From the NCBI RefSeq assembly GCF_900177245.1, contig NZ_FXBM01000001.1:1860001-1924000 (forward strand): 64,000 bases of DNA, read 5' to 3'. The DNA is from Rathayibacter oskolensis (GTDB lineage Bacteria > Actinomycetota > Actinomycetes > Actinomycetales > Microbacteriaceae). Positions 7,190 through 28,782 of this stretch are shown here, one piece after another. The notes below the pieces were generated by a model. The model worked only from the letters and a program-made list of their open reading frames with translations. It ran no database searches and was not told the origin of the DNA. Numbering within the stretch: position 1 is the stretch's first letter; every line of letters starts with the position of its first letter. The translations under genes and the position numbers were made by a program.

Positions 7190-7199
7190 CCACGCCGCG

Positions 7200-8231: not shown

Positions 8232-8240
8232 CCTGTGAGG

Positions 8241-8669: not shown

Positions 8670-9065
8670 GACGTCGAGTCTGCGCGCGCGGGTCGGGAGG
8701 CGCGACGGGTTGCGCTGTGGGCGATCCGGAGGGGGCGGTGCGATCCGCAGGAGGCGGTGCCGTCCGCAGGAGACGGTGCGGTCTGCAGGAGATCGTGCGA
8801 CTCCTCACCGATCGACGGGGCGGAGACTCCGGCGCGCGACTCCTGCGAATCGCACACCCCGCCTTCCGGCTCGCGCTCCGCCTCCGGGATCACTCTCCGC
8901 CTCCGAGCAGGGGAGGCGGGACGGACGCCGCATTCGCAGCCGGCGGTGTCATACTCCGCAATGCGGCGGAGGCCCGACCGGCGGTACGACAGGCTGGAGG
9001 GGCCGTGCTGCGGCGCGAAGGCGGGCCCTTCCCGAGCCGCACCCTCCAACGATCAGGAGTCTCCG
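8670..9065. other. 396-nt intergenic region with short degenerate repeats
   Basis: No gene is seen here. It lies between the divergent DUF2256/DUF3253 gene and the flavin reductase gene, so it holds both promoters. It contains three 19-bp tandem units (8734-8790). An inverted relative, CTCCTGCGAATCGCAC, lies near 8840-8855. A partial dyad, CTCCGCAATGCGGCGGAG, lies at about 8954-8971. I could not place -10/-35 boxes with confidence. Confidence 0.6.
8734..8790. repeat. Three tandem 19-bp units
   Basis: Units GGCGGTGCGATCCGCAGGA (8734), GGCGGTGCCGTCCGCAGGA (8753) and GACGGTGCGGTCTGCAGGA (8772) follow each other with an exact 19-bp period. A further decayed copy begins at 8791. They sit upstream of the flavin reductase gene. 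Confidence 0.9.
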
Positions 9066-9632
9066 ATGAGCCGTGAGAATCTCGCCACCAGTGCCGACGT
9101 CTCGGACGAGTCCCGCCCGCGCGCCTTCGCGGGGCTGTCCCCGGAGGAGTTCAAGCTCGCGTTCCGCAACCACGCCGCCGGCGTCGCTCTGATCACCGCG
9201 GACCCCGGCACGGGTCCCGTGGCGCTGACCGCCACCTCCGTCTTCTCGGTGAGCGCGGAGCCGCCGCTGTTCGTCTTCTCGCTCTCCTCCGCCTCGTCGA
9301 GCTCGCCGGCCATCCAGGCGTCCGAGACGCTCGTCGTGCACCTCCTCGGGGCCGGCCAGCTCGATCTCGCCCGCCTCGGCTCGACCAGCGGCATCGATCG
9401 CTTCGCCGACACCGCGATCTGGTCGCGACTGCCCACGGGCGAGCCTTACTTCCCGAACGCGGCGGCGTGGATCCGCGGCACCGTCATCAACCGCATGGAG
9501 GCGGGCTCGTCGACGATCGTCGCGGTGCACGCGCTCGAGGCGCACGTGCCGGAGGACTCCGACGCCACCGCCCCGCTCGTCTACCACAACCGCACCTGGC
9601 ACCACCTCGGCGAGCACTCCCGCCTGAGCTGA
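9066..9632 (+). CDS. Flavin reductase family protein
   Basis: A 188-residue protein of the HpaC/DIM6-like FMN-binding split-barrel family, which reduces free FMN or FAD with NAD(P)H to supply flavin monooxygenases. The core pattern is clear: FRNHAAGVALITAD, then VALTATSVFSVSAEPPLFVFSL, and the C-terminal YHNRTWHHL. The ATG at 9066 was chosen because the family domain starts soon after it. It converges on the ten-gene minus-strand operon whose first two genes are an SsuD-like and an SfnB/DszC-like flavoenzyme; both types need reduced flavin, so it is a plausible partner. That link is inference. Confidence 0.88.
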   Translation: MSRENLATSADVSDESRPRAFAGLSPEEFKLAFRNHAAGVALITADPGTGPVALTATSVFSVSAEPPLFVFSLSSASSSSPAIQASETLVVHLLGAGQLDLARLGSTSGIDRFADTAIWSRLPTGEPYFPNAAAWIRGTVINRMEAGSSTIVAVHALEAHVPEDSDATAPLVYHNRTWHHLGEHSRLS

Positions 9633-9659
9633 ACGCCCGGCCGTCCGCGACCGCGTCGA

Positions 9660-10120
9660 CCGCGCAAGAGTTGTCGCACTCGACGTCGACGGCGACAACT
9701 CTCGCGTTCTCGCGAACCCGGAGTCGCTGAGGACGCGCCGTCCCCGCCCCACTCGGGCCGCGAGTGCGCAGAAGTTGTCGCACTCGACCACGACCGCGAC
9801 AACTTTCGCGTTCTCGCGAACCCGGGCTCGCTCAGGGCGGCCCGTCCGCCACGGGCGGGACCTCGAATGCGCAGAAGTTGTCGCACTCGACCACGACCGC
9901 GACAACTCTTGCGTTTTCGCGAACCCGGAGTCGCTCAGGCGGCCCGTCCCCGCCAAGGTCGGACCGCGAATGCGCAGAAGTTGTCGCACTCGACGTCGAC
10001 GGCGACAACTTTCGCGTTGTCGCGAACCCGGAGTCGCTCAGGGCGGCCCGTCCGCCACGGGCGGGACCGCGAGTGCGCAGAAGTTGTCGCACTCGACCAT
10101 CGAGTGCGACAACTCCTGCG
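9660..10120. repeat. Five tandem ~103-bp units, each with a GTTGTCGC hairpin
   Basis: The 539-nt gap between the convergent flavin reductase and rhodanese genes is filled by a tandem array. The motif GTTGTCGC starts at 9670, 9774, 9877, 9980 and 10083, giving steps of 104, 103, 103 and 103. In each unit AGTTGTCGC is followed by GCGACAACT, forming a stem of at least 9 bp. Between hairpins runs a spacer with TTCTCGCGAACCCGG and TCGCTCAGG. The units differ by scattered substitutions. Stems lack a T-tract, so simple terminator function is uncertain. Short reading frames through it are products of the repeat. Confidence 0.93.
10082..10114. terminator. Perfect 15-bp hairpin closing the repeat array
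   Basis: AGTTGTCGCACTCGA and TCGAGTGCGACAACT are exact inverted copies around the 3-nt loop CCA. It is the longest stem in the array and the unit nearest the rhodanese stop. It could act as a bidirectional terminator for the two converging transcripts, although no U-run follows. Confidence 0.5.
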
Positions 10121-10171
10121 TTCTGGACCGGGCGGGAGCGAGGGTGCCCGCGCCCGCACGCCGAGCGGACT

Positions 10172-11068
10172 CTAGGCCTCCGCGCCCGTCGCGACGGCGC
10201 GGCCGGGGGTGTTCGACCACTGCGACCACGAGCCGGGGTACACGGCCGGCGCGAAGCCCGCGAGGGTGAGCGCGACCGCGTCGGCCGCGGCCGTCACTCC
10301 GGAGCCGCAGTAGACGCCGACGGGAGCGTCGGCCCGGACGCCGACCGCCTCGAAGCGCGCACGGAGCTCCGACGACGGCAAAAAGCGCCCGTCCGAGCCG
10401 ACGTTCTCGGTCGCGGGCGCGTTCAGCGCCCCCGGGATGTGCCCGGCGCGCGGGTCGATCGGCTCGACGTCGCCGCGGTAGCGCTCGGGCGCCCGCGCGT
10501 CGAGCAGCACGCCGAGCGAGGGGAACTCGGCCGCCTCCTCGATGTCGAGCACCGGCAGCGCGCCGTAGGCGAGCTCGACGTCGCCGGGCGCGGGCGTGAC
10601 CGGCCCGGTCTCGAGCGCTCGACCGGAGCCGGTCCACGCGCGGAGCGATCCGTCGAGCAGGCGCACGTCGGCGACTCCGGCCGCGCGCAGCAGCCACCAC
10701 GCGCGGGCCGACGAGAGGTTCTTCAGGTCGTCGTAGACCACGACGGCCTGGCCCCGGCGCAGGCCCCAGCCGTGCGCCGCCTCCTGCAGCGCCTCGATCG
10801 GAGGCAGCGGGTGCCGCCCGTCGCCGGGGTCGCCGTGCGCCGCGAGCTCGTGGTCGAGGTCGACGTAGACGGCACCGGGGAGGTGCCCCTCGAGGTAGGC
10901 GGGACGGCCGTCGGGGCGGTCGAGGCGCCAGCGCACGTCGAGGACGAGCGGCGGCTCGGGCGACGCGAGCGCCGCCTCCAGCTCGTCGGGCGTCACGAGG
11001 ACGTCGCTGCGATCGGGGATGGCGGATTCGTCGGGGATGTCGGTGTCGGAGGAAGCAGTGTCGGTCAT
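10172..11068 (-). CDS. Sulfurtransferase (rhodanese / 3-mercaptopyruvate sulfurtransferase type)
   Basis: A 298-residue two-domain rhodanese. Both domains show the usual pattern (LVLDVRWRLDRPDGR; VLLDARAPERYRGDVEPID). Only the second has the active-site loop, CGSGVTA, with the persulfide-forming Cys. The enzyme moves sulfane sulfur from thiosulfate or 3-mercaptopyruvate to a thiol or cyanide acceptor. The ATG at 11068 has AAAGGA upstream. It lies 20 nt after the FAD oxidase gene, so it is probably the last gene of the long operon that starts with the SsuD-like monooxygenase, which fits a sulfur role. Confidence 0.9.
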   Translation of the reverse strand: MTDTASSDTDIPDESAIPDRSDVLVTPDELEAALASPEPPLVLDVRWRLDRPDGRPAYLEGHLPGAVYVDLDHELAAHGDPGDGRHPLPPIEALQEAAHGWGLRRGQAVVVYDDLKNLSSARAWWLLRAAGVADVRLLDGSLRAWTGSGRALETGPVTPAPGDVELAYGALPVLDIEEAAEFPSLGVLLDARAPERYRGDVEPIDPRAGHIPGALNAPATENVGSDGRFLPSSELRARFEAVGVRADAPVGVYCGSGVTAAADAVALTLAGFAPAVYPGSWSQWSNTPGRAVATGAEA

Positions 11069-11088
11069 GTCCGTCCTTTCGAGTGCGC

Positions 11089-12404
<1,316 letters not shown>

Positions 12405-12408
<4 letters not shown>

Positions 12409-13115
12409 GCCTCCACCCGCGTGATGATCGGCGCGGTCGCCGCCGACGCCTTCACCCGCTCGAGGAAGAGCACCACGGTCGCGGCGGCAGAGCGGTGCGT
12501 CGCGTCGTTCAGGGCGTCGTGCCGCCCGTCGGCGACGAGGTGGATCTCGGCCCGCGGGGCAGTGCGGTAGAGGGCCACCGCCTCCGCGACGGGGCTGATC
12601 GCGTCGGCCCCTCCGTGCAGCGCGAGCAGCGGCACGCGCACGGCGCTCGCCGCGACGGCGAGCAGCTCCGGAGGCAGCACCGCGTCGCGCGCACCCGCGT
12701 CGGTCTCGCGCGCCAGCACCCCCGCGTGGTTCGGGCAGGCGGTCCGCTCGGCGATGCCCTCGCCTCCCTCTGCGCGGACGGGCAGACCGGCGACGATCAC
12801 GGCGTCGACCGCGTCGTGGTGGGTGGCGGCGATCTCGAGGGCGACGGCCGCGCCCGCGTCGGAGCCGACGAGGACCACGGGCGTGACCGCGGCGGGGTCG
12901 CGGAGGAGGTCGAGCGCCGCCTCCCGCACGACCTCGGCCGTCGCGTCGCCGAGGGCGCGGACGCGGTAGGCGTCGCGGGCGAGGCGGGTGCCGAAGCGCT
13001 CGTAGACGGCGGGGGTCTCGCCGCGACCGCCGAGGACGATCAGCGTGCCGCGGGGCGCGATGCCCTCGGGCTCGTCGAAGCTGCGGGCGAGGAGGACAGG
13101 GGTGGTGACGGTCAT
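12405..13115 (-). CDS. Alpha/beta hydrolase
   Basis: A 236-residue serine-hydrolase-like protein. An early GRGE loop (TLIVLGGRGETPAVYERFG) suits the oxyanion region. VVLVGSDAGAAVALEIAA stands at the nucleophile elbow but reads GSDAG rather than GxSxG, so Asp may replace Ser. LLALHGGADAISPVAE holds the acidic residue and DGRHDALND the His. Asp nucleophiles occur in some hydrolases of this fold such as dehalogenases and epoxide hydrolases; activity here is unknown. It overlaps both neighbours by 4 nt, inside the proposed organosulfur operon. Confidence 0.8.
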
Positions 13116-14092
13116 GCGGGGACTCCTTCGGGAGAGGGGACGGAGAGCTCGGCGAGCGGGAGCGGCGCGGCGGCCGCCTCCCGCCCGCGGAGCCCGAGGA
13201 GGTACTGGAGGCGCTCGCTCACGGGAGCGGGGACGCCGGCTCGGCGGGCGAGCAGCACGACCTCGCCGGTGAGGTGGTCGACCTCGCTGCCGGCGCCGCG
13301 GGCGAAGCTCTGCCAGGTCGAGAGGCGGCCGGCGGTGTGACCGGTGACGGGCTCGACCCGGAGGCGAGTGCCGTCGTCGTCGGCGATCGTGCGGCCGTTC
13401 GCGGTGAGCGCGAGGCGCGCCTCCGCGACGAGCAGCTCGCGCAGGGCGGCCCGCTCGTCGTCGGGGCCGGTGAAGAGGTCGAGGCCGTTGACCGCGTTCG
13501 CGAGCAGCTTCCGCGCCTTCCACGCGCCGATGTCGGGCACGGCCCGGGCCGCGAAGCCCGCGTCGCGGAACGTCGCGGCGAGCACCGGAGCCAGGGCGTC
13601 GTCGGCGTCGGGGTGCCGGCCGATCCAGAGCGCGCCGACGGTCGGGAACGACGGCGACACGACCTCGCCGGGGATGAGGAAGCTGGCCGCGATGCCGATC
13701 GAGACGCCGAACACGTCGGCGAAGCGGCGGAGCGCCAGGTCCTCGGCGGCGAGCCCGTTCTGGAAGGTGAGCACCGGCAGCTCGCTGCCCGCTCCCCCGT
13801 CGGCCAGCGGCGTCCACGCCCACTCGGCGAGCGCCGTCTCGGCGTCCTGCGCCTTCACGGTGAGGACGAGCACGTCTCCGCGCCGCGGCGCTGCCTCGAG
13901 AGGCCCGCTCGCGACCTGCACGCGCACGATCTCGTCGCCCGCCGGCCGTCGGAGGCGGAGCCCGTTCTCGCGCACCAGGCGGAGGTGCTCGCCGCGCGCG
14001 ATCAGCACGACGTCCTCCCCCGCGAGGTGCAGCTGCGCCGCGACGACCGAGCCCACCGCCCCGCCGCCGATGACGAGGAATCGCCCGCTCAC
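13112..14092 (-). CDS. Ketopantoate reductase-like (ApbA/PanE family) enzyme
   Basis: A 326-residue NADPH-dependent reductase. The Rossmann start FLVIGGGAVGSVVAAQLHLAG gives the dinucleotide site. LTVKAQD marks the substrate Lys region and FQNGLA and WKARKLLANAVNGL are family signatures. The family reduces 2-oxo acids such as ketopantoate. Its place inside an uptake and oxidation operon, with 4-nt overlaps at both ends, argues for a catabolic substrate rather than pantothenate synthesis. The GTG at 14092 overlaps the ATPase stop. Confidence 0.85.
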   Translation of the reverse strand: MSGRFLVIGGGAVGSVVAAQLHLAGEDVVLIARGEHLRLVRENGLRLRRPAGDEIVRVQVASGPLEAAPRRGDVLVLTVKAQDAETALAEWAWTPLADGGAGSELPVLTFQNGLAAEDLALRRFADVFGVSIGIAASFLIPGEVVSPSFPTVGALWIGRHPDADDALAPVLAATFRDAGFAARAVPDIGAWKARKLLANAVNGLDLFTGPDDERAALRELLVAEARLALTANGRTIADDDGTRLRVEPVTGHTAGRLSTWQSFARGAGSEVDHLTGEVVLLARRAGVPAPVSERLQYLLGLRGREAAAAPLPLAELSVPSPEGVPA

Positions 14093-15723
14093 GAGGCCAC
14101 CGCCGAGGTTCCGGGGATCGCCGCCAGGAGCGCCCTGGTGTACTCCGCCTCCGGCGAGCGGAAGACGCGGGAGGTGCTGCCCGCCTCCTCCACCCTGCCG
14201 CGGTTCAGCACCACGATCTCGTGCGACACCTCGGCGACGACCGCGAGGTCGTGCGAGACGAAGAGGTAGGCGACGCCGAGATCGCGCTGCAGCTCGACCA
14301 GCAGCTCGAGGATCTGCGCCTGCACCGACACGTCGAGCGCCGACACCGGCTCGTCGAGCAGCACCAGGTCGGGGCCCAGCGAGAGCGCTCTGGCGATCGC
14401 CACGCGCTGCCGCTGGCCGCCCGAGAGCTCGGCGGGCAGGCGCGCGAGGAAGGAGTCGGGCAGCCCGACGCGGTCGAGGAGCTCGTGGGCGCGGGCGAGG
14501 CGGGCGACGCGGTCGCCGACGCCGAAGGACACGAGCGGCTCGACGACCGACTCGAGCACCGTGAAGCGAGGGTCGAGCGCCGCGAACGGGTTCTGGTGCA
14601 CCAGCTGGATGCGCCGCCGGAGCGGCCGCCACTGCTTCTCGCGCGCCGTGGTGAGGTCGGCGCCCTCGACGAGCACCCGGCCGCTCGTGGAGCGCTCGAG
14701 GCCCAGCGCGATGCGCAGCGCGGTCGTCTTGCCCGAGCCCGACTCCCCCACCAGCGCCAGCGTCTGCCCGGCGCGCACCGAGAACGAGACGTCGTCGAGC
14801 GCCCGGAAGTCGGCGCGCCGTCCCGGGAGCGAGAACTCCTTGACGACGTTCTCGAGGCGCAGGATCTCGGGAGCCGGCTCGACGTTCTCGAGGCGCAGGA
14901 TCTCGGGAGCCGGCTCGACGTGCTCGAATCGCGGCACGATCCTCCCGCCGTGCCCCAGGCCGGGGGCGGCGGCGAGGAGGGCGCGCGTGTACTCCTGCCG
15001 GGGCGCGACGAGGATCTCGGCGGGCGGACCCTGCTCGACCACCTCGCCCGCGCGCATCACCAGCACGCGATCGGCCCGGTCGGCCGCGACCGCGAGGTCG
15101 TGCGTGATGATCAGCAGCGCGATCCCCTGGTCGCGGACGAGCGACTGCAGGTGGTCGAGGATCCGCTTCTGCACGGTGACGTCGAGGGCCGAGGTCGGCT
15201 CGTCGGCGATGATCAGCCGCGGCTTCCCCGCCAGCGCGATCGCGATCAGCGCGCGCTGGCGGAGGCCCCCGGAGAGCTCGTGCGGGTACTGCCGCGCCCG
15301 CAGCTCCGGATCGTCGATGCCCGCCTGCCCGAGCGCCTCGAGCACCTCGGCGTCGACCGAGCGGCGGTCGACGCCGCGCAGGCGCACGGCCTCGGCGATC
15401 TGCGCGCCGATCCGGAGGGTCGGATCGAGCCCGACCATCGGGTCCTGCGGCACCAGGCCGACGAACCGTCCGCGGAGGCGGCGCAGCTCCTTCTCGGAGG
15501 CGCGCGTCACGTCGTCGCCGGCGATCTCGATCGAGCCTCCGGTGATGCGCCCGGCGGTGGGCAGGAGCCCCAGGACGGCGTTCGCGGTCGTCGACTTGCC
15601 CGACCCCGACTCGCCGACCACGGCGACGATCTCGCCCGGCGCGATCTCGAGCGACAGCTCGCGGACGACGATCTGCGCGTCGTAGGCGACCGAGAGGCGG
15701 TCGAGCCGCACGAGCGCGCTCAT
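14089..15723 (-). CDS. Peptide/nickel-type ABC transporter, fused double ATPase
   Basis: A 544-residue protein holding two ABC ATPase domains of DppD and DppF type in one chain. Each has a Walker A (GESGSGKST near residue 38; GESGSGKTT in the second), an LSGG signature (HELSGGLRQR; AELSGGQRQR) and a Walker B (LIIADEPTSALD; LVLLDEPVSALD). It powers import together with the two permeases and lipoprotein encoded just upstream. The linker contains a 12-residue direct duplication (VEPAPEILRLEN) from a 36-bp tandem repeat. It overlaps both adjacent genes by 4 nt. Confidence 0.95.
   Translation of the reverse strand: MSALVRLDRLSVAYDAQIVVRELSLEIAPGEIVAVVGESGSGKSTTANAVLGLLPTAGRITGGSIEIAGDDVTRASEKELRRLRGRFVGLVPQDPMVGLDPTLRIGAQIAEAVRLRGVDRRSVDAEVLEALGQAGIDDPELRARQYPHELSGGLRQRALIAIALAGKPRLIIADEPTSALDVTVQKRILDHLQSLVRDQGIALLIITHDLAVAADRADRVLVMRAGEVVEQGPPAEILVAPRQEYTRALLAAAPGLGHGGRIVPRFEHVEPAPEILRLENVEPAPEILRLENVVKEFSLPGRRADFRALDDVSFSVRAGQTLALVGESGSGKTTALRIALGLERSTSGRVLVEGADLTTAREKQWRPLRRRIQLVHQNPFAALDPRFTVLESVVEPLVSFGVGDRVARLARAHELLDRVGLPDSFLARLPAELSGGQRQRVAIARALSLGPDLVLLDEPVSALDVSVQAQILELLVELQRDLGVAYLFVSHDLAVVAEVSHEIVVLNRGRVEEAGSTSRVFRSPEAEYTRALLAAIPGTSAVAS
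14845..14916. repeat. Perfect 36-bp tandem duplication in the linker of the fused ATPase
   Basis: Positions 14845-14880 and 14881-14916 are identical; a decayed third start follows (GACGTGCTCGAATC). The duplication is in frame and repeats VEPAPEILRLEN between the two ATPase domains, so it lengthens the linker without disrupting the protein. Confidence 0.97.
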
Positions 15724-16622
15724 CGCTGCACCTCCTCGACGGTCTTCGCCACGTGGTTCAGCGAGAACACCAGGAGGCCGACGAACAGACCGGGCAGGAG
15801 CGAGAGCCACGGACTGGTCACCAGGTAGTTGCGGCCGCTCGAGATGAGCGTGCCCCACTCCGCGGCGGGCGGCGCCGCTCCGAAGCCGAGGAAGCTCAGC
15901 GCGGCCACGGCGATGATCGCGGTGCCCAGGTCGAGCACCGCCAGCACGGCGACCGGGCCCCACGAGTTCGGGAGCACGTGCCGCGCGAGGATGCGCAGGC
16001 GGGTGGCGCCTCCGGTGCGGGCGGCCTCGACGTAGGGCAGCGTCTTCACCCGCAGCACCTCGGCGCGGGTGGTCCGCGCGAAGCCCGGCAGGATCCCGAT
16101 GCCCACGGCGAGTGCCACGGGCAGCGTGCCGAAGCCGATCGCGGTGACGATCGCGAGCGCCAGCAGCAGCCCGGGGATCGCGAGCAGCACGTCGACGATC
16201 CGCATGACGACCGCGTCGACGACTCCGCCCGCGTAGCCCGAGACCACCCCGAGCGCGAGACCGCCGACCAGGGCGATCGCGATCGCGATCACCGTGGCCT
16301 GGATGGTCAGCGACCCGCCGTGCAGGACCCGCGCGAACAGGTCGCGGCCGAGCTCGTCGGTGCCGAAGAGGTGGGCGGCGCCGGGTGCCTGGAGCTTGTC
16401 GGCCGGCGCGGTCGCGTACGGGTCGTAGCCGGTGAACAGCGCTGGGGCGATCGCCGACACCAGCACGAAGACGGCGAAGGCGAGCGCGATCACGAATCCG
16501 GGGCGGCGGAGGAGGAGCCGGAGCGTTCTGAGGCGCCGTGCGCTCCTCCCGTGCGCGGCGCGCTCGCGGGGCGGGGAGGCGGCCGTCACGGCTGTCTCGT
16601 CGCGGGTCAGTTCGAGCGTCAT
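15720..16622 (-). CDS. ABC transporter permease, DppC type
   Basis: A 300-residue inner-membrane permease with about six membrane helices. The N-terminal segment (FGTDELGRDLFARVLHGG) is the hallmark of DppC/OppC proteins. The EAA loop, which contacts the ATPase, is at YVEAARTGGATRLRILARHVLPNSW. It works with the DppB-type permease encoded upstream. ATG 16622 overlaps that gene's stop by 4 nt. Confidence 0.93.
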   Translation of the reverse strand: MTLELTRDETAVTAASPPRERAAHGRSARRLRTLRLLLRRPGFVIALAFAVFVLVSAIAPALFTGYDPYATAPADKLQAPGAAHLFGTDELGRDLFARVLHGGSLTIQATVIAIAIALVGGLALGVVSGYAGGVVDAVVMRIVDVLLAIPGLLLALAIVTAIGFGTLPVALAVGIGILPGFARTTRAEVLRVKTLPYVEAARTGGATRLRILARHVLPNSWGPVAVLAVLDLGTAIIAVAALSFLGFGAAPPAAEWGTLISSGRNYLVTSPWLSLLPGLFVGLLVFSLNHVAKTVEEVQR

Positions 16623-17638
16623 GGCCGGCTCGCCTTCGCTGTCGTGGTGATGCGCGGATCGAGGAGGGGGTAGAGCAGGTCGACGAGGAGGTTGATCCCG
16701 ACGAAGACGGCCGCGGCCAGAACCACGACGGCCTGCACCACCGGCACGTCCTGGGTGAGCACCGACTCCTGGGCGAGCGTGCCGATGCCCTGCCGGGCGA
16801 AGATCGTCTCGGCGACGATCGCGCCGGTGACGGTGTTGCCGGCCAGGACGCCGAGGATCGTGAGCGTCGGCAGCGAGGCGTTGCGGAACGCGTGCCGCCA
16901 CTGGACGGCACCGCGGGAGAGCCCCGTGGCGCGCGCGGTGGTGATGTACGCCTCCCGCTCGACGTCGGCGAAGCTGCGGGTCAGCACCTGCGCGAGCATC
17001 GCCGAGGTGGGGATCGCCATCGTCACCGCCGGCAGGATCAGGCTCGCCGGCGTCGCGCTGCCCGTGGAGGGCAGCAGGTGCAGGGTGAAGGCGAAGAACT
17101 GGATGAGCAGCAGGCCGATCCAGAACCCGGGGAACGCGACGCCCGCGGAGGGCAGCCGGCTCAGCACCACCTTGAGCGGACGCCACCGCACGTACGCCGC
17201 CAGGTAGGCGAGCGTCGTGCCGCCGACGAGCGCGAGCCCGATCGCGAGGGCGCTGAGCTGCAGGGTTCCCGGCAGCTTCTCGGCGATCAGCTCGGTGACC
17301 GGGATCCCCTTGGTGATGGAGGTGCCGAAGTCTCCCCGCAGAGCACTGCCGAGCATGTGCAGGTACTGCTGCCAGACCGGCTGGTCGAGCCCGTAGCGCG
17401 CCTGCGCCTCGGCGAGCTGCTGAGGGGTCAGGGAGTCGAGCTCGACGTTGTTGGCCGAGAGCAGCAGGGCGAGCGGGTCGCTCGGCAGCAGCCACAGCAC
17501 GGCGAAGGTCACGGTGTAGGCGGCCCACAGCACCAGCACCGCCTGCCCGAGCCGGCCGGCGAGGTAGCGGCCGAGGCCCGAGGGGGCCGAGCGGGTGCCC
17601 AGCCTCCCCGGTGCCGCCGCGGTCGCGAGGGTCGTCAC
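16619..17638 (-). CDS. ABC transporter permease, DppB type
   Basis: A 339-residue permease with about six membrane helices. The N-terminal helix is followed by a periplasmic stretch (YGLDQPVWQQYLHML, GDFGTSI) characteristic of DppB/OppB. The EAA loop is at YITTARATGLSRGAVQWRHAFRN. It forms the channel with the DppC-type partner. The GTG at 17638 overlaps the stop of the substrate-binding protein gene (GTGA). Confidence 0.93.
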   Translation of the reverse strand: MTTLATAAAPGRLGTRSAPSGLGRYLAGRLGQAVLVLWAAYTVTFAVLWLLPSDPLALLLSANNVELDSLTPQQLAEAQARYGLDQPVWQQYLHMLGSALRGDFGTSITKGIPVTELIAEKLPGTLQLSALAIGLALVGGTTLAYLAAYVRWRPLKVVLSRLPSAGVAFPGFWIGLLLIQFFAFTLHLLPSTGSATPASLILPAVTMAIPTSAMLAQVLTRSFADVEREAYITTARATGLSRGAVQWRHAFRNASLPTLTILGVLAGNTVTGAIVAETIFARQGIGTLAQESVLTQDVPVVQAVVVLAAAVFVGINLLVDLLYPLLDPRITTTAKASRP

Positions 17639-19293
17639 GGCTGGATCCAGGTCCCGGCGAAGTCGCCGAACGCCTCCGAGGTGAAGCGGAAGCCGTGCAC
17701 CGCCGACGACACGCCCGCGAGCTGCACGCGCTCGGCGAAGGGGAACACCAGCGCGTTGTCGAGCAGGTAGTCCTGCAGCTCGGCGTAGACCGCCGCTCTC
17801 GCCGTCGTGTCGACAGTCTGCACGCCCTCGTCGAGCAGCGCCTGCACCTCGGTCGCCTGCTCGGCGGTGAAGTTGTTGACCGCCTGAGCCTTCGATCCGG
17901 CGTACCGGGAGTCGATGATCCACTGGATCACTCCCGGATCGGCACGCGTGTAGTAGGTCGAGATCAGGTCGTAGTCACCGCTGTTCAGCACGTCGGCGCG
18001 CTGCGCGTTCGTGATCACGTTCAGCTCGAGGTCGATGCCCACCTGCTTGAGCTGGTCCTGGATCAGCTGGTCGCCCGCTCCGAACTGCGCCACGATCGGC
18101 ACCGAGAGGGTGAGCTTCTGCCCGTCCCTGTAGCGGTAGCCGTCGTCGCCGAGCGCCCAGCCCGCCTCGTCGAGCAGCTCGCCCGCTCCGTCGGCGTCGA
18201 AGGCCAGCTTCGAGGACTCGTCCTGGTAGAAGGGCGTCGTCGTGTTGTAGACGCTCGTCACGGCCGGGTAGTCGGCGCCGAAGATCGTCGAGGCGTAGGT
18301 CTCGCGATCGATCGCCTTCTGCACGGCCTCGCGCACCCTCTGTTCCGAGAGGATCTTCCCCTCGGAGACGTTCGGGTAGTAGTCGCTCGCGGGGCCCGGC
18401 AGCGACCGGCTCTCGACGGTGTCGCCGTTGCCGGTGATCACCGCCTGGTCGTTCTCCGAGATCGGGTTCCGGCCCCAGGCGATGTCGATCTCGTCGCTCG
18501 TGAGCTGGCCGACGCGGACGCTGTCCTCGGCGACGTAGGTGACGTCGATGCCGTCGAGGTACGCCTCCCCCGGGTTGTCGCGGAGGCCGGAGCCCCAGGC
18601 GTAGCCGGCGCGCTTGTCGAGGGTGATGCCGGTGCCCGGCGTGTAGTCGCTGAGGGTGAAGGGCCCGGAGCCGACCACGGCCCCGAGGCAGCGCTCCTCG
18701 GGCGTCTTCTCGTACGACGAGGCGGCGAGGATCGCGAGATTGGTGGTCGACGTGCCCTGGAGGAACGCGGCGTTGGGCGTCGAGAACGTCACCTTCACCG
18801 TGTCGGCGTCGACCACCTCCGTGCCCGAGTAGCCGGCCAGGTAGACGCCACCGTAGGCCGCGGGCAGCTGCTCGAGTGTCGCCTCGTCGTTGTCGAACGC
18901 CGTCTTCACGCTGTCGGCGGTGAAGGCGGTGCCGTCCGAGAACGTGACGTCGGTGCGCAGATCGAAGGTGTACTCGGTGCCTTCGTCATTGACGCTCCAG
19001 TCGGTCGCGAGCCAGGGCTCGATCTCGCCCGTCTCGGGGTCCTGGTCGGTCAGGGAGTCGGCGACGTTCCGGATCACGGTGCGGTGCTCGATCCAGTAGG
19101 TCTGGAACGGGTCGACGCACGAGAACGCGGCGTTGTCGGGGAAGAACGCGAGCGAGAGGCGGCCACCGGCCACCGGGGTCGCGTCGTCGGAGGCGGTGCC
19201 CGCGTCGGAGGATCCGGAGCAGGCGGTCAGGGCCAGGGAGGCGGCGAGGGTGAGCGCGGCGGCGCCGGCCCAGCGGGATCGTCGATGAGTCAT
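17635..19293 (-). CDS. ABC transporter substrate-binding lipoprotein, family 5
   Basis: A 552-residue extracytoplasmic solute-binding protein of the peptide/nickel family. The lipobox LTAC places the lipidated Cys at residue 25. The family 5 signature lies around EYTFDLRTDVTFSDGTAF. I chose the ATG at 19293, which puts the signal peptide at the very N-terminus. In related operons with flavin monooxygenases such proteins bind small organosulfur or heterocyclic compounds rather than peptides, but the ligand here is unknown. The gene sits 25 nt after the SfnB-like gene. Confidence 0.93.
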   Translation of the reverse strand: MTHRRSRWAGAAALTLAASLALTACSGSSDAGTASDDATPVAGGRLSLAFFPDNAAFSCVDPFQTYWIEHRTVIRNVADSLTDQDPETGEIEPWLATDWSVNDEGTEYTFDLRTDVTFSDGTAFTADSVKTAFDNDEATLEQLPAAYGGVYLAGYSGTEVVDADTVKVTFSTPNAAFLQGTSTTNLAILAASSYEKTPEERCLGAVVGSGPFTLSDYTPGTGITLDKRAGYAWGSGLRDNPGEAYLDGIDVTYVAEDSVRVGQLTSDEIDIAWGRNPISENDQAVITGNGDTVESRSLPGPASDYYPNVSEGKILSEQRVREAVQKAIDRETYASTIFGADYPAVTSVYNTTTPFYQDESSKLAFDADGAGELLDEAGWALGDDGYRYRDGQKLTLSVPIVAQFGAGDQLIQDQLKQVGIDLELNVITNAQRADVLNSGDYDLISTYYTRADPGVIQWIIDSRYAGSKAQAVNNFTAEQATEVQALLDEGVQTVDTTARAAVYAELQDYLLDNALVFPFAERVQLAGVSSAVHGFRFTSEAFGDFAGTWIQP

Positions 19294-19318
19294 GGCTGTG
19301 TGTCCTAAGAAGAGAGGG

Positions 19319-20491
19319 TCAGAACGCGGCAAGGGTGCGCGTGCCGGCGATCAGGAGGGCGGCGTCGTCCTGCGGCGGGTGCACCCGCGAGGCGAGGACG
19401 TCGCGGAGGTGGCGCTCGAGGGGGTTGTGCCGCGTGAGCCCCGGGTTGCCGAGGGCGGCGACGGCGGTCTCGACCGCCGCGACCGCCGAGCGGGTGGCGA
19501 GCAGCTTGCCGACGACGAGGCGCTCCGCGGCCCGCGGATCTCCCGCGTCGACGCGGGCGGCGAGCGAGAGCAGCACCTCCTCGGCCTGCACGAGCTGCGC
19601 CTCGATCTCGCCGGCGACCGAGCGGATGCGCTCCGTCGTCGCGATCGGGCGTCCGAGCGAGGTCGGGATCCGCTCGTTCGCGAACTGGACGAAGAAGCTC
19701 TGCGCCGCCCGCCCGATACCGACGTAGAGCGCCGCGACCGCGAGGCCGAATCCTCCGCCCGCCCCCGCCTCCGGAGCGAGCTGCGAGCGCGGGGTGCCGC
19801 GGAAGTGCTCCAGCGGCAGGCGGACCTGCTCGTAGACCACGTCGTGCGTGCTCGAGGCGCGCTGGCCCAGGTGGTCCCAGGTCTTCTCGATGCGGACACC
19901 CGGAGCGTCTCCCGGCACTATCGCGTGCGCGAGCTCGGGCTCGCCCGAGGCGCCCTGCAGGTCGACCGCCCAGACGAGGTGGTAGGCGAGCCCCTCGGAG
20001 CCGGTGGCGAAGCCCTTGCGCCCCTCGAGCACCCACTCGTCGCCGTCGGGGCGGATCGTCGTGGCGGGCAGTCCGCCGCGGGCGGGCGCGCCCCACTCGG
20101 GCTCGGCCCGCACCGCGTTCAGCAGCACCGGGCGCTCGGCGGAGTCGGCGAGGACGGTGCGGTAGAGCTGGTCGGGCCAAGTCGCCCCTCGGTCCTGCGC
20201 CGCGTGCTGCAGAACGGTCATCGCCGAGATGAGCGCGACGGCCGGGTCGCCCTGACCGAGCGCCTCGAAGATCCGGACGAGATCGACCGTCGAGGGCGGG
20301 GTCCCGCCGTAGCGGGAGCCGACCGCGACGGTGAGGAGCCCGGCGTCGTGGACGGCGCGGATCCCCTCCCACGGGAACTCGGCGGTGCGGTCGTAATGCT
20401 CGGCGGTCTCGGCGAGGCGGGCGGTGAGCCGGCCGAGCGCCCGGTCGGAGAGGTCGGGGACGAGGCGGGCGGGCGCGTCGAGGAGCGTCAC
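19319..20491 (-). CDS. SfnB/DszC-like acyl-CoA dehydrogenase-fold flavoprotein
   Basis: A 390-residue protein with the acyl-CoA dehydrogenase fold: an N-terminal helical domain, a middle beta domain (WVLEGRKGFATGSEGLAYHL, then DHLGQRASSTHDVVYEQVRL) and a C-terminal helical bundle. The substitution pattern and the neighbouring SsuD-like gene point to the SfnB/DszC branch, which uses reduced flavin to oxygenate or release sulfur compounds, rather than to fatty acid oxidation. The GTG at 20491 overlaps the monooxygenase stop by 4 nt. The real substrate cannot be read from sequence. Confidence 0.8.
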   Translation of the reverse strand: MTLLDAPARLVPDLSDRALGRLTARLAETAEHYDRTAEFPWEGIRAVHDAGLLTVAVGSRYGGTPPSTVDLVRIFEALGQGDPAVALISAMTVLQHAAQDRGATWPDQLYRTVLADSAERPVLLNAVRAEPEWGAPARGGLPATTIRPDGDEWVLEGRKGFATGSEGLAYHLVWAVDLQGASGEPELAHAIVPGDAPGVRIEKTWDHLGQRASSTHDVVYEQVRLPLEHFRGTPRSQLAPEAGAGGGFGLAVAALYVGIGRAAQSFFVQFANERIPTSLGRPIATTERIRSVAGEIEAQLVQAEEVLLSLAARVDAGDPRAAERLVVGKLLATRSAVAAVETAVAALGNPGLTRHNPLERHLRDVLASRVHPPQDDAALLIAGTRTLAAF

Positions 20492-21666
20492 GCGATCGCT
20501 CCGACCAGCTCGGTGCTCTCGAGCGGCGGCTGCGCGACGATCTCGCCGCGGCGGCCGGTGGCCTCGCGGTGCGCGAGCTCCTCCCGGACCAGCGGGATGA
20601 GGTAGCGCCCGTAGTCGACAGCGTCGTTCAGGTTGTCGTAGCCGCGGATCGAGATCAGATCGGCGCCGAGGTCGACGTAGTCGAGGATCGCCGCGGCGAC
20701 GGTCTCCGGCGTGCCGACGAGGGCGGTGGAGGCGCCCTGCGCGCCGGTCGCGGTCGCGGTCGGCGTCCAGAGGGCGCGGTCGTGCAGATCCTTGCGGCGC
20801 GCGATGTCGAGCAGACGCTGCGAGCCGACGTTCGCAGGTCCCTCCGCGTCGGGCGTCTGCACCCAGAGGCCCTTCTCGCCCTTCCGCGGGTTCGAGGTCG
20901 TCGCCGAGCGGCTCTGCAGGATCCCGAGGATCCGGTGCGCCTTCTCCCACGCGAGCTCCTCGGTCGGCGCGATGATCGGCCGGAAGGTGACCCAGGTGCG
21001 CGGAGTGTCGGGGCGGCCGGCTTCGCGGGCGGCGTCGGCGATCCGGTCGATCTGCTGCTGGGTGTCGGCGAGCGGCTCACCCCAGAGCCCGAAGATGTCG
21101 GCGAGCGCGCCGCCCTGGCGGTAGGCCTCGTCGCTCGAGCCGCCGACCGAGACGGGGATGCTCCCGCGCACCGGCCGGACCCGCGAGACGAAGTCCTCGA
21201 AGCGGTAGTAGGCGCCATCGTGGTCGAACGGCTCCGTCGCCGACCAGACCCGGCGCAGGATCCGGATGTACTCCTCCTGGCGGGCGTACCGCTCGGTCTT
21301 GCCGAGGCGGTCGCCCTCGCGCGCCTGCTCGTGGTCGTTGCCACCGGCGATGAGGTGCACGACGGCGCGGCCGTTCGAGAGCTGGTCGAGGGTGGCGAGC
21401 GCCTTGGCGGCCACCGTCGGGTAGACCGTGTTCGGCCGCAGCGCCACGATCGGCTTCAGGTGCTCGGTGTACTGCGTGAGCGCCGAGGCGATGGTGAAGG
21501 GGTCGTGCCCGGCCGAGCCGTAGGGGACGAGCGTGTAGTCGAAACCGCCGTCCTCGAGGATCCGCGAGTAGCGGCGGAGGTAGGCGACGTCGATGCCCGG
21601 CTGGGCGAGGCCGTTGACCTCGTTGGAGCTGTTGACGTTGATCGCGGAGATGAACTCGACGGCCAT
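20488..21666 (-). CDS. LLM-class flavin-dependent monooxygenase, SsuD-like
   Basis: A 392-residue bacterial-luciferase-fold enzyme. The start EFISAINVNSSNEVNG, the DYTLVPYGSAGHDPFTIASAL segment, and DQLSNGRAVVHLIAGGNDHEQ (FMNH2-binding region) fit the alkanesulfonate monooxygenase/nitrilotriacetate group. Such enzymes use FMNH2 and oxygen to cleave C-S or related bonds. First structural gene of a ten-gene operon. A 168-nt leader separates it from an upstream Cys-containing short ORF. AAAGGACC precedes the ATG at 21666. The exact substrate is unknown. Confidence 0.88.
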   Translation of the reverse strand: MAVEFISAINVNSSNEVNGLAQPGIDVAYLRRYSRILEDGGFDYTLVPYGSAGHDPFTIASALTQYTEHLKPIVALRPNTVYPTVAAKALATLDQLSNGRAVVHLIAGGNDHEQAREGDRLGKTERYARQEEYIRILRRVWSATEPFDHDGAYYRFEDFVSRVRPVRGSIPVSVGGSSDEAYRQGGALADIFGLWGEPLADTQQQIDRIADAAREAGRPDTPRTWVTFRPIIAPTEELAWEKAHRILGILQSRSATTSNPRKGEKGLWVQTPDAEGPANVGSQRLLDIARRKDLHDRALWTPTATATGAQGASTALVGTPETVAAAILDYVDLGADLISIRGYDNLNDAVDYGRYLIPLVREELAHREATGRRGEIVAQPPLESTELVGAIA

Positions 21667-21834
21667 GGTGGTGGTCCTTTCGAAGGGAGGTGCGCGAGGG
21701 CGCGGAGATGGTGCGCGGGCGCGGCGAAGCAGCCCGGAGGAGGGAGTCGACGGCGCTGCTCGAGGAGCGCGGGTCGCGTGCGGCGGGAGGCGCCGTGTCA
21801 GTGCGGGCGACGCGGAGGCGTCAGCGCCGGAGAG

Positions 21835-21993
21835 TCAGCGAGGGGCCGGACAGGAACATCCGCGCACCGACGCGAAGCGGTTCCCGCCCAGGAGCATTCG
21901 ACGCTGGAGCATTCGCCCGGCCGGGGCTCCGACGCGCACCGCTCGGACCGCGCCGGAGGGCGCAGTCGAGACGAGGGCACGCGGGGAGGTCAT
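21835..21993 (-). CDS. Probable cysteine-responsive leader peptide
   Basis: A short frame of 52 codons lies 168 nt upstream of the SsuD-like gene on the same strand. It ends VRGCSCPAPR, with two Cys codons (TGT) separated by one codon close to the stop. Actinobacteria are known to control sulfur genes by short leader peptides in which ribosome stalling at Cys codons changes RNA folding. The following RNA can form CGGCG-GGAGG-CGCCG (21781-21795) and GACGC-GGAG-GCGTC (21809-21822). No good ribosome site precedes the ATG at 21993, so it may be leaderless or start at an internal ATG (RMLQRRMLLGG region). Placement and composition support it; translation is unproven. Confidence 0.45.
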   Translation of the reverse strand: MTSPRALVSTAPSGAVRAVRVGAPAGRMLQRRMLLGGNRFASVRGCSCPAPR

Positions 21994-22027
21994 GTCGTCG
22001 ACGCTACGGTCGGGGCCGCTCGGGCGT

Positions 22028-22074
22028 CCAACGATGATTCCGGATGCGTTCCGATCGGCGAACCCGATCGTTGG
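22028..22074. promoter_or_regulatory. Inverted repeat in the promoter region of the SsuD-like operon
   Basis: CCAACGAT at 22028 and ATCGTTGG at 22067 are exact inverted copies 31 nt apart. They lie between the LysR gene stop and the putative leader peptide, where the operon promoter should be. The LysR product encoded just upstream is the natural candidate to bind here. Confidence 0.4.
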
Positions 22075-22106
22075 TAAGACTTCGTCATCTTCGCGTCGCA
22101 CGGGCA

Positions 22107-22994
22107 TCACGAACGGACCTCGTGGAGCGGAGTCCGGGGGCGGGCGGGGCCGAACAGCTCGGCGAGCGCAGTGAGCGCCGTGTCCTCCACGTCCGGCGCG
22201 AGGCCCCGCCGCGAGACCAGGCGGAGGTTCACCGAGCCCAGTGCGGGCAGGTCGCGCCGCACCTCGAGTCCGTCGGCGACGGAGCCCCGGTGCGAGGTCG
22301 GCAGGACCGCGACTCCGACGCCCGCTCTCGCCGCGGCGATCACCCCCTCGAGCCCCGCGGACTCGGCGACGACCCGCACCTCGTGCCCGAACGCGCCGAG
22401 CTGCTGCAGGGCGCGCTGGCGCATCCCGCACGGCTCCGAGTAGGCGACGAGCGGGATCGGGGCGCCCTCGGGAGGCAGCCAGCCGGGCGCCGCGTACCAG
22501 TCGAGCGGCAGCGTGGCGACCTGGCGGCCCGGCAGATCGCCGCCGACCCCGAGGATGACCGCGAGGTCGAGCACCCCGCGGGCCACCGCCTCCGCGAGAT
22601 GGGTGGAGCGGTCGAGAGAGAAGGTCAGCGGCCGGTCGTCGAAGGCGCGGCGCAGGGTCTCGAGGAGGCGCGGCAGCAGCTGCTCGGCGGCCGGCTCGGT
22701 CAGGCCCAGGGCCAGCGGGTTCTCGCTCGCCGCGTCGAGGGTCTCGAGCGCGTCGTCGTGCACGGCGAGGATGCGCCGGGCCTGCACGAGGAGGCGCTCG
22801 CCGGCCGGGGTGAAGCGGGCCCTCCGCCCGACCTTCTCGATGAAGGTGCGCTCGAGCCGGCGCTCGAGGGTGCGGACGTGCTGCGACACCGTCGGCTGGC
22901 TGATGTGCAGCGCGACGGCCGCCCGCCCGAACCCGCCGCAGTCGGCGATCGCCACGAGCGTGCGCAGGTGGACGATGTCGAGGGTCTCGGGCAT
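22107..22994 (-). CDS. LysR-family transcriptional regulator
   Basis: A 295-residue LysR regulator. The winged helix-turn-helix is at residues 5-65 (LVAIADCGGFGRAAVALHISQPTVSQHVRTLE). The effector domain follows with VLDLAVILGVGGDLPG and GVGVAVLP. The gene lies upstream of and on the same strand as the organosulfur-type operon, ending 113 nt before its leader ORF, and probably regulates it. The effector could be a sulfur compound or a pathway intermediate, but nothing in the sequence says which. Confidence 0.9.
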   Translation of the reverse strand: MPETLDIVHLRTLVAIADCGGFGRAAVALHISQPTVSQHVRTLERRLERTFIEKVGRRARFTPAGERLLVQARRILAVHDDALETLDAASENPLALGLTEPAAEQLLPRLLETLRRAFDDRPLTFSLDRSTHLAEAVARGVLDLAVILGVGGDLPGRQVATLPLDWYAAPGWLPPEGAPIPLVAYSEPCGMRQRALQQLGAFGHEVRVVAESAGLEGVIAAARAGVGVAVLPTSHRGSVADGLEVRRDLPALGSVNLRLVSRRGLAPDVEDTALTALAELFGPARPRTPLHEVRS

Positions 22995-23067
22995 CCCCCG
23001 ACGGTACTGAGGGCCCTCGCTCGCCGAGGTCGCCGCCGCAACACGCCGACATCTGCCGCGGATGCAG

Positions 23068-23101
23068 GAGCGGACGAGACCCCGGAGGATCTCGTCCGCT
23101 C
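23068..23101 (-). terminator. Hairpin downstream of the first bulb-lectin gene
   Basis: GAGCGGACGAGA and TCTCGTCCGCTC form a perfect 12-bp stem with a 10-nt loop, 35 nt after the lectin stop (minus strand). Stem and loop resemble the terminator at 24413-24454. Confidence 0.75.
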
Positions 23102-23135: not shown

Positions 23136-24323
23136 TCAGGCGCCGGAGGGAGCCACGTAACCGCTCGGCTGCCGGTTCCAGAGGGCCCGGTCGTTCGCGC
23201 TGTAGACGACGAGGTTGGCGTCGCTCTGGAGCACGAGGACCGCACCCGGATTGCCTCCCGTCGCGGTCGACCACAGCGCGCGGCCACCGGCGCTGTAGAC
23301 GACGGCGTTGCCGTCCGCCTGCATGACGAGACGGTTGCCCGCCCCACTGGTGCCGGTGCTCCAGAGGGCGCGCTGCGGGTTGCCGGGGTACCCCCTCGTG
23401 TAGACGACGAAGTTGCCGTCGCTCTGCATCGCTCCGAAGAGGAAGCTGTCGAGCGATGTCAGCGACTGACCGGCGACGAGCTGAGACCCGGCGGCCAGCG
23501 CGTTGCGGTACGTCGGCGCCGGCGGGAACTGCTGGGTCGACCAGATTGCCTGGCCGGTTCTGGAGTAGAGGACGAGGTTGCCGTCGGTCTGCATCACGAG
23601 GCGGTCCTCGTTGTAGCCCGAGGTACCGGTGAACCAGACGGCGCCCTGCCCGGCGACGCTGACCAGGTCGCCCGCCCGCAGGACGAGCTTCGTCCCCCCG
23701 CTGGTGCCCGCGCTCCAGCTCAGTCCGAAGGGTGCGTAGACCACGAAGTTCCCGTCGTTCTGGTACACGGCGCGGTATCGACCGTCGGCCGAGACGAGTG
23801 CCTGCCCTCGATCGAGCTGGCGGCCGTCGAGCAGGGTGTCCTCGCCGCGGCTCGCCCAGAGAGCTGCACCCGACGCCGAGTACGAGACGAGGTTGCCATC
23901 GTTCTGGATCGCGAGGAAGGCCGGCGCGCCGCGCCCGGCGCTGCCGCTGGACCAGAGTGCTGCGCCCTGCGCGGAGTAGATCACGATGTTGCCGTCGCTC
24001 TGGAGAGTCAGGGTGTTCCCCGCGCCCTGGGTCGAGCTGACCCAGACGGGCCGACCGCTCGGGTTGTAGACGACGGCGTTGCCATCGGTCTGCAGGGCGA
24101 AGGTGTACGTGCCCCCTTCGTTCGCCGCGGCAGAGACGAGCTGCTCGCCGGCCTTCAGAGTTCCTCCGACCTCGAGGCGATCACCGACGGCCACGGCGGC
24201 GGATGCGGCCTCCGTCGAGACCCGGGTGGCGGGAGCCGCGAGCGCCGGCGCTGCGACGACTCCGCAGCTCAGCGTGGTGGCGAGGACGGCGGCCGCGATG
24301 CGGCTGCGGGTGGACAAGGTCAT
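23136..24323 (-). CDS. Secreted bulb-type (B) lectin repeat protein
   Basis: A 395-residue exported protein. The signal peptide covers residues 1-29 (ending ALAAP). The rest is built from bulb-lectin subdomains marked by eight QxDxNxVxY motifs, for example LQTDGNAVVY, LQSDGNIVIY and MQTDGNLVLY. These motifs are the mannose-binding sites of plant and bacterial B lectins. A second, larger lectin is encoded at 26816-28678. AAGGGGGA lies upstream of the ATG at 24323. The likely role is binding of mannose-rich glycans outside the cell; the target is unknown. Confidence 0.92.
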   Translation of the reverse strand: MTLSTRSRIAAAVLATTLSCGVVAAPALAAPATRVSTEAASAAVAVGDRLEVGGTLKAGEQLVSAAANEGGTYTFALQTDGNAVVYNPSGRPVWVSSTQGAGNTLTLQSDGNIVIYSAQGAALWSSGSAGRGAPAFLAIQNDGNLVSYSASGAALWASRGEDTLLDGRQLDRGQALVSADGRYRAVYQNDGNFVVYAPFGLSWSAGTSGGTKLVLRAGDLVSVAGQGAVWFTGTSGYNEDRLVMQTDGNLVLYSRTGQAIWSTQQFPPAPTYRNALAAGSQLVAGQSLTSLDSFLFGAMQSDGNFVVYTRGYPGNPQRALWSTGTSGAGNRLVMQADGNAVVYSAGGRALWSTATGGNPGAVLVLQSDANLVVYSANDRALWNRQPSGYVAPSGA

Positions 24324-28678: not shown

Positions 28679-28782
28679 GGGGGGCCCTTTCACGGTGCAG
28701 GTGGGGGCGATCGCCGCTCGTCATCGGGCGGCATGCGGAGCCTGGCACGCGCTCGTCGCGACGGTCCATCCCTCCTGAGTAG

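Follow-up and report, generated by a model that had tools for sequence, protein, structure and literature searches.

A putative sulfur-starvation operon with a cysteine-ending leader reading frame in Rathayibacter oskolensis

The described operons closest to the locus reported here are those of the ssu, msu and sfn type, in which a luciferase-like monooxygenase (LLM) dependent on reduced flavin mononucleotide (FMNH2) is combined with a flavin reductase and an ATP-binding cassette (ABC) importer under sulfur control; msu and sfn operons also have a partner with the acyl-CoA dehydrogenase fold. We analysed a window of 64,000 nucleotides of Rathayibacter oskolensis, a bacterium of the soil and plant type (contig NZ_FXBM01000001.1, positions 1,860,001 to 1,924,000), in which ten open reading frames (ORFs), g1 to g10, lie on the minus strand at 10172-21666 (Table 1; positions are those of the window, and L and G numbers designate surveyed loci and genomes). 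The g1-g10 locus resembles the ssu, msu and sfn operons in these features, and an MsuE flavin mononucleotide (FMN) reductase was found above the cut-off in loci of relatives (L051, L024). However, g1 lacks the arginine clamp for sulfonates, the importer is of the peptide type, and a PanE-like protein, a GlcD-like protein, a hydrolase and a mercaptopyruvate-type sulfurtransferase are added.

The Dsz and Bds desulfurisation operons share the pairing of an LLM with a monooxygenase of the acyl-CoA dehydrogenase fold, but no desulfinase was recognised among g1-g10 and g2 scored 31.4 bits against the DszC model, whose cut-off is 850. Clusters of the KPN_01854/KPN_01858 type combine a TIGR04028 binding protein with a TIGR04027 LLM. 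The importer family is the same, with g3 at 322.6 bits against TIGR04028 (below the cut-off of 468.5), and at one surveyed locus (L076) a TIGR04027-like LLM stands beside a back end similar in kind to that described here, whereas g1 itself gave no match to TIGR04027 at E 0.001. In four loci above the TIGR04027 cut-off (L093-L096, 20 kilobases each) tblastn found no g1, g2 or g7-g10. In excerpts of published reports, peptide-type ABC genes were among those induced on benzothiophene compared with sulfate in Gordonia terrae (PubMed Central, PMC3868597), and genes for SfnB, an LLM and a mercaptopyruvate sulfurtransferase were raised on dibenzothiophene in Gordonia (PMC11852219); the excerpted data of the latter study contain no operon of this kind.

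We propose that the locus is most probably (about 0.87) a sulfur-starvation operon for scavenging an organosulfur compound, because its leader ends in cysteine codons, its products are depleted of cysteine and methionine, and its gene set is conserved in permuted orders. The comparison of g9 with GlcD paralogues and the MsuE match also favour this reading. A preliminary description of the DNA had already assigned the genes to an organosulfur compound, which these observations support; it listed the genes but missed the leader, the promoter, the operator-like dyad and the convergent flavin reductase. Gene content, leader ORF, dyad, sulfur-sparing composition and conservation can be read directly from the DNA. 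No pathway with this exact gene set was known to the preliminary description, and our literature searches in open-licence PubMed Central papers found none either.

Operon layout, leader and operator-like dyad

The ten-gene, translationally coupled operon was confirmed. All coordinates were reproduced, as were the seven 4-nucleotide overlaps (GTGA at g1/g2, g3/g4, g6/g7 and g8/g9; ATGA at g4/g5, g5/g6 and g7/g8) and the gaps of 25 nucleotides (g2-g3) and 20 nucleotides (g9-g10). An alternative start of g10 is the GTG at 11092, with the better ribosome site at the ATG at 11068. The GC content of third codon positions is 94-97% across g1-g10. Internal promoters or terminators had been named beforehand as evidence against a single operon; a scan of 9600-23100 found 0 terminator-like and 0 sigma-70-like sites, which is weak in DNA of 72.5% GC with chance expectations of only 1.4 and 0.1. 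On the opposite strand within g8, ARAGORN called a tRNA-Leu (12998-13089, plus strand), which is probably false, as Rfam has only the tRNA at 52881.

An alignment of about 450 nucleotides before g1 from seven sequences revealed conserved blocks, the leader ORF among them. Its frame and RGCSCP tail are present in 8/8 Rathayibacter, and the middle of the ORF varies in length and letters. The leader ATG lies 7 nucleotides past TAGCGT, a TANNNT box within the 6-8 nucleotides required of leaderless starts, with TTGGAC further upstream; the arrangement is thus that predicted for a leaderless transcript. Both cysteine codons of the leader tail are TGT, a codon used 0 times in g1-g10 and the LysR gene compared with 7 TGC. 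In Mycobacterium smegmatis, leaderless ORFs with contiguous cysteine codons attenuate operons, according to excerpts of two reports (PMC9031893, PMC9094748). The mycobacterial attenuators (Canestrari et al. 2020, as cited in these two reports) are similar in their leaderless-type start, their cysteine codons and their place ahead of sulfur genes. Unlike them, the Rathayibacter leader has CxC instead of contiguous cysteines as well as a dyad at fixed spacing, and its cysteine response is putative.

We defined a Cys-tail ORF as one with CC or CxC within the last 12 residues and scanned the upstream regions of the window, 47 further actinobacterial loci and 24 alphaproteobacterial loci (L011, L071, L072 and L075 were left out). 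Any such ORF was found in 30 of the 48 actinobacterial regions; shuffles gave 3.6% of 2400, and a control set of 192 other genes from these loci gave 14. For leaderless ones the figures were 17/48, 0.04% and 0/192; these counts, like the locus counts below, include close relatives (8 Rathayibacter) and are not independent events. The 17 carriers are the 8 Rathayibacter (window included), five other Microbacteriaceae (L006, L007, L012, L024, L064), two Cellulomonas (L005, L008), Kineosporia (L017) and Streptomyces (L029). Among the alphaproteobacterial regions, one of 24 had a Cys-tail ORF and none a leaderless one.

The dyad GAT-N8-AT stands exactly 11 nucleotides before TTGGAC at 22 of the 23 TTGGAC sites in the 48 actinobacterial regions; 39 other offsets gave 1 match in total, and the arrangement was absent from all 192 control genes. 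When ten genomes were searched, the pattern had a single match, at the operon, in four (G001, G002, G003, G007) and one place elsewhere in each of three (G004, G006, G041). G005, G010 and G102 showed no match, although all three carry g1. This suggests a regulator specific to the operon, for which the neighbouring LysR protein is the simplest candidate. The combination TTGGAC-TANNNT-ATG was found at 8 places in 4 genomes. Four are at the operon (G001, G002, G057, G007), all with a Cys-tail ORF; a wider regulon was rejected, as the other four places are without one.

Table 1. Positions of the operon, its control elements and adjoining genes in the window
Feature	Position	Strand	Basis or remark
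LysR-family regulator	22107..22994	-	likely operon activator; homologue in 20/48 actinobacterial loci
Operator-like dyad GAT-N8-ATC (GATCGGAACGCATC)	22043..22056	-	11 nucleotides before TTGGAC; spacing conserved
TTGGAC, -35-like element	22026..22031	-	upstream alignment and spacing
TAGCGT, -10-like element	22001..22006	-	7 nucleotides before leader ATG
Leader ORF, 52 codons, MTSPRALV...VRGCSCPAPR*, Cys codons TGT	21835..21993	-	frame and tail conserved
g1, luciferase-like FMNH2 monooxygenase, separate clade	20488..21666	-	profile search, alignment, tree
g2, acyl-CoA-dehydrogenase-fold flavoenzyme, probably monooxygenase	19319..20491	-	profile search, motif
g3, lipoprotein binding protein, TIGR04028-like (SBP_bac_5)	17635..19293	-	profile search
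g4, DppB-like permease	16619..17638	-	profile search
g5, DppC-like permease	15720..16622	-	profile search
g6, double ATPase, DppD-DppF type	14089..15723	-	profile search
g7, PanE/ApbA-like oxidoreductase	13112..14092	-	profile search, motif
g8, alpha/beta hydrolase, Asp at nucleophile place	12405..13115	-	profile search, alignment
g9, GlcD-like flavin adenine dinucleotide 2-hydroxyacid dehydrogenase	11089..12408	-	profile search, motifs
g10, mercaptopyruvate-type sulfurtransferase, two-domain rhodanese	10172..11068	-	profile search, active-site loop
Flavin reductase, RutF/HpaC family, convergent	9066..9632	+	likely FMNH2 source

Sulfur-sparing composition and conservation of the gene set

Few sulfur residues are expected in proteins that are synthesised when sulfur is short; a literature search on starvation proteins of this kind yielded nothing relevant. 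The products of g1-g10 hold 5 cysteines and 7 internal methionines, that is 12 in 3773 residues, compared with 67 cysteines and 184 methionines (251 in 15134 residues) in 46 other ORFs of the window (p=3.6e-13 for the sums), a count in which the gene caller shortened g4 to 306 residues and some of the 46 ORFs are possibly spurious. g1, g7 and g9 have neither residue, and the convergent flavin reductase (188 residues) has 1 methionine and 0 cysteines. The depletion recurs in the loci of relatives: cysteine plus methionine amount to 0.32% in cluster genes (56) vs 2.78% in neighbours (37) in Rathayibacter, 0.42% (279) vs 1.65% (311) in other Actinobacteria and 0.43% (103) vs 2.65% (229) in Alphaproteobacteria. 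In the LysR proteins the depletion is weaker or absent (1.02% in Rathayibacter, 1.67% in other Actinobacteria). Seven GlcD paralogues outside the cluster, read in the aligned frame, contain 1.87-3.04%, whereas g9 contains none. Neighbours at or below 0.6% include genes for DsbA-like, LldD-like, FMN reductase, SsuA-like and LLM-rhodanese proteins, a restricted list that yields no rate. Among reference proteins, an SfnG fragment has 0.30%, SsuD and MsuD 0.87-0.91% and SmoC 4.25%.

A scan with g1, using one genome per species, yielded 75 loci, which were mapped by tblastn because the gene caller misses genes in loci of lower GC. Gene content was counted in 48 actinobacterial loci, several of them on short contigs, and 24 alphaproteobacterial loci; L071, L072 and L075 lie outside both groups. 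The window g1 shares 95% identity with its R. tanaceti counterpart. The preliminary description had called for a survey of the gene order: the order LysR followed by g1 to g10 is shared by four Rathayibacter loci (L001-L004), but it is permuted in other Actinobacteria. Three further Rathayibacter loci (L009, L047, L069) show part of this arrangement before the retrieved sequence ends. We found g1-g6 LysR g10 g8 g9 in Cellulomonas (L005, L008), g10 g1-g7 g9 in five Microbacterium loci and Quadrisphaera, LysR g10 g1-g7 g9 in Aeromicrobium (L013, L015) and Subtercola (L014), and g1-g7 g10 in Kineosporia. In three Rhodococcus loci (L022, L027, L028) g1, g2, g8, g10 and g9, in two also g7, surround an SsuA-type importer, whose binding protein scores just above its cut-off. 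Directly upstream of one of these clusters (L027, 4309-8349) lies a MobF/TrwC relaxase gene, a hint of a mobile element.

Homologues were present in the 48 actinobacterial loci as follows: g2 in 39, g3 in 37, g4 in 36, g5 in 35, g6 in 37, g7 in 31, g8 in 19, g9 in 28, g10 in 29 and LysR in 20. The 24 alphaproteobacterial loci have g2 in 22, importer genes in 17 and g7 in 8. The gene set is thus conserved in shuffled orders in Actinobacteria and reduced in Alphaproteobacteria. In the tree, most g1 rows from Alphaproteobacteria cluster together inside actinobacterial ones, which suggests transfer.

Within the Microbacteriaceae the operon is accessory, since g1 is sparse: among 199 genomes, of which the best 8-11 or so first-look candidates per genome were scored, g1 exceeds 78% identity in 5, and 13 more have a g1-like gene at 50-54%. 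Moreover, g7 is a specific marker, found in 9/199 genomes, and the 4 with at least 80% identity all carry g1. As markers of the operon, g9 and g10 were rejected as nonspecific. In Rathayibacter Leaf185 (L077, 7742-11660) a g1-like monooxygenase (51%), an NAD_binding_9 protein and a GNAT gene sit between neighbours that are adjacent at 43303-45216 of the window, which is without them (synteny judged by eye).

Enzyme families, active sites and candidate substrates

The family assignments of g1-g10 hold at the superfamily level. This bears out the peptide-type importer (g3-g6), the PanE-like reductase (g7) and the GlcD-like oxidase (g9) of the preliminary description, and narrows its other names. 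g1, called SsuD-like, belongs to the LLM superfamily but stays below the SsuD model TIGR03565 (177.7 bits, cut-off 518.2). The SfnB/DszC-like label of g2 holds for the fold only, as the score against the SfnB model TIGR04022 was 96.3 bits at a cut-off of 430.9. g8 is an alpha/beta hydrolase, though with aspartate in place of the serine nucleophile. The rhodanese g10 has two domains and is closest to 3-mercaptopyruvate sulfurtransferase (NF008557, 135.1 bits, below the cut-off of 250).

The closest solved relatives of g1 are SsuD and MsuD. In the excerpted MsuD study, Trp195, Arg225 and Arg296 are each required for methanesulfonate (PMC8234197). We aligned 75 g1-labelled rows with SsuD, MsuD and SfnG. 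The tryptophan is present in the window g1 and in 73/75 rows, and Tyr330 is also retained in g1. At the places of Arg225 and Arg296 the window g1 has threonine, as do 65/75 and 70/75 rows, and the place of His227 is arginine in 73/75. Both arginines are missing in all 73 rows of the g1 clade and present in SsuD, MsuD and SmoC. Arginine at 225 or 296, or no arginine at 227, occurs only in L025_4 and L061_9, which fall outside the clade in the tree; L025_4 is SsuD-like and retains Arg-His-Arg. The structure 7oh2, which we take to be the sulfoquinovose monooxygenase SmoC, has the same fold as g1 and cleaves a C-S bond, which is putative for g1. Because both sulfonate-binding arginines are lost across the sampled clade, g1 is probably not a standard sulfonatase but a separate clade with one relocated arginine.

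Catalytic acyl-CoA dehydrogenases have a C-terminal catalytic glutamate in an EGT motif. In g2 the alignment to acyl-CoA dehydrogenase ends just before HxPQxD, a motif near the end of the domain that is found in 61/61 rows and resembles HNPPMDD of 5gj7. Judged by motif residues whose roles we presume, g7, g8, g9 and g10 look active. Among ungapped rows, g7 has the ketopantoate-reductase lysine in 40/40 and the glutamate in 39/39, g8 the aspartate in 19/19, and g9 HAGDGN in 25/28 and EHG-V/I-G in 28/28. Searching the PDB with a profile of the g8 family gave no match at 1e-5. g10 has the loop CGSGVT, typical of 3-mercaptopyruvate sulfurtransferases, which is exact in 30/33 ungapped rows and has the same letters in E. 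coli 1urh.

In the scheme that we propose, enzymatic steps, regulation and substrate are all predicted. Under sulfur shortage the neighbouring LysR protein would bind the dyad at 22043-22056 and drive the leaderless promoter. The transcript would start with the 52-codon leader, at the end of which stand two rare TGT codons for cysteine, and scarce Cys-tRNA may stall the ribosome at the leader and release the ten genes, following the mycobacterial precedent. Their products, nearly free of cysteine and methionine, could be made at little sulfur cost. Uptake, C-S cleavage, carbon processing and sulfur transfer, which the preliminary description saw joined, are a chemistry that we infer: g3-g6 would import the organosulfur compound, g1, with FMNH2 from the convergent flavin reductase, and g2 would oxidise it and cleave the C-S bond, g7, g8 and g9 would process a 2-hydroxy or 2-oxo acid part, and g10 would pass the sulfur on as a persulfide.

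Several observations weigh against a sulfur-starvation operon of this design. The Cys-tail ORF is missing in 18/48 actinobacterial and 23/24 alphaproteobacterial upstream regions, and a LysR homologue is encoded in only 20 of the 48 actinobacterial loci. The leader has Cys-Ser-Cys, with CxC in 8/8 Rathayibacter, and no contiguous run; CCC is present in the leaders of Cellulomonas (L005, L008) and Kineosporia (L017). Folding of the RNA from leader to g1 scarcely improves on shuffles (z about -1.1) and lends little support to an attenuator hairpin. Relatives of g9 and g10 occur widely apart from the cluster (in 147 and 70 of the 199 Microbacteriaceae genomes), and g8, g9 and g10 are found in 0/24 alphaproteobacterial loci. 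Finally, low cysteine and methionine content marks starvation genes and not one substrate, because the SfnG fragment is itself sulfur-poor.

As to the substrate, our tentative suggestion is 3-mercaptolactate, or a comparable 3-thio-2-hydroxy acid, in the form of a thioether: acting on 3-mercaptolactate, g9 and the mercaptopyruvate-type g10 would yield pyruvate and sulfane sulfur. A 3-mercapto-2-hydroxy acid is also suggested because pairings of an LLM, a 2-hydroxyacid oxidase and a sulfurtransferase recur. An LldD-like 2-hydroxyacid oxidase is encoded at L024 (found by search), L064 and L044 (by clustering); in the Microbacteriaceae loci L024 and L064 it belongs to a second g1 cluster that directly follows the first and has its own Cys leader. 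In Luteimicrobium xylanilyticum (L066, 7864-9438) an LLM and a rhodanese domain are fused in one ORF, at L068 and L067 the two regions adjoin, and clusters of relatives also hold a second rhodanese. L076 (G041, 2395-12796) represents a second sulfur-poor cluster type with a related importer, PanE-like, TIGR04027-like LLM and GlcD-like genes and a DUF1684 domain fused to mercaptopyruvate sulfurtransferase. Through these pairings, oxygenation by an LLM would be tied to the oxidation of a 2-hydroxyacid and to the transfer of sulfane sulfur.

One reading is that a thiol and not sulfite is released: g1 and g2 would hydroxylate the carbon beside the sulfur and open the thioether, g9 would oxidise the 3-mercapto-2-hydroxy acid and g10 would take the sulfur as a persulfide. 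This possibility, to which we give tentative weight, agrees with the g10 loop, the active-type motifs of g9 and the recurrent pairings, including the fusion and the second cluster with another LLM. However, it leaves g7 without an explained part, and many mercaptopyruvate-type proteins act elsewhere. The absence of g8-g10 from the 24 alphaproteobacterial loci implies that the back end is dispensable for the g1-g2 function and thereby weakens the 3-mercaptolactate proposal. Rather doubtful in its full form is an undescribed sulfur-acquisition pathway bypassing sulfite, in which a new FMNH2 monooxygenase clade would act on a natural thioether and liberate a 3-mercapto-2-hydroxy acid, enzymes of the g9 and g10 type would deliver persulfide, and LysR dyad and Cys leader would form the switch.

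An ssu/msu-type sulfonate operon with extra genes, in which g1 would cleave an organosulfonate (for example of the sulfolactate or sulfoacetate type) to sulfite and an aldehyde acid, g7 and g9 would process the carbon and g10 would handle sulfite or sulfane sulfur, is rather unlikely. The kinship of g1 with SsuD and MsuD, its retained Trp195 and Tyr330, the SsuA-type importer of two or three Rhodococcus loci and the MsuE reductase of relatives fit it, and the relocated arginine might bind an anion. Nevertheless, the two arginines essential in MsuD, present in SsuD, SmoC and the SsuD-like L025_4 as well, are missing throughout the clade. That the genes form a general catabolic operon for peptides, opines or organic acids with an accidental sulfur link is very improbable given the Cys leader, the sulfur-sparing composition and the sulfurtransferase, even though the importer is of the peptide/nickel type and the PanE, GlcD and hydrolase families have no specific tie to sulfur.

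Neighbouring features and biological implications

Four relatives retain the convergent flavin reductase beside g10 at 89-93%, and SsuE-like reductases occur at L013 and L025. Between g10 and the flavin reductase, 9657-10124 contains five repeat copies at a spacing of 103-104 nucleotides, each unit consisting of a half AGTTGTCGCACTCGA and a roughly inverted partner; the exact 15-mer was found nowhere in the corresponding stretch of four relatives (L118-L121). Near the LysR gene, two minus-strand genes (23136-24323 and 26816-28693) encode proteins of repeated QSDGNxVxY-like units that look lectin-like by eye.

The kind of operon is known from ssu, msu and sfn; new are the monooxygenase clade, the gene set and the joining of a Cys leader to an operator at fixed spacing. 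At the sequence level, the mycobacterial cysteine-leader design is extended to Microbacteriaceae, Cellulomonadaceae, Kineosporiaceae and Streptomycetaceae, and low cysteine and methionine content can help to delimit sulfur-starvation gene clusters. The clade offers a monooxygenase with an altered active site, and leader and operator make the sulfur question accessible to reporter assays. No enzyme set found in our searches of open-licence papers explains the use of such an organosulfur compound, which is apparently usable by several actinobacterial families and some Rhizobiales.

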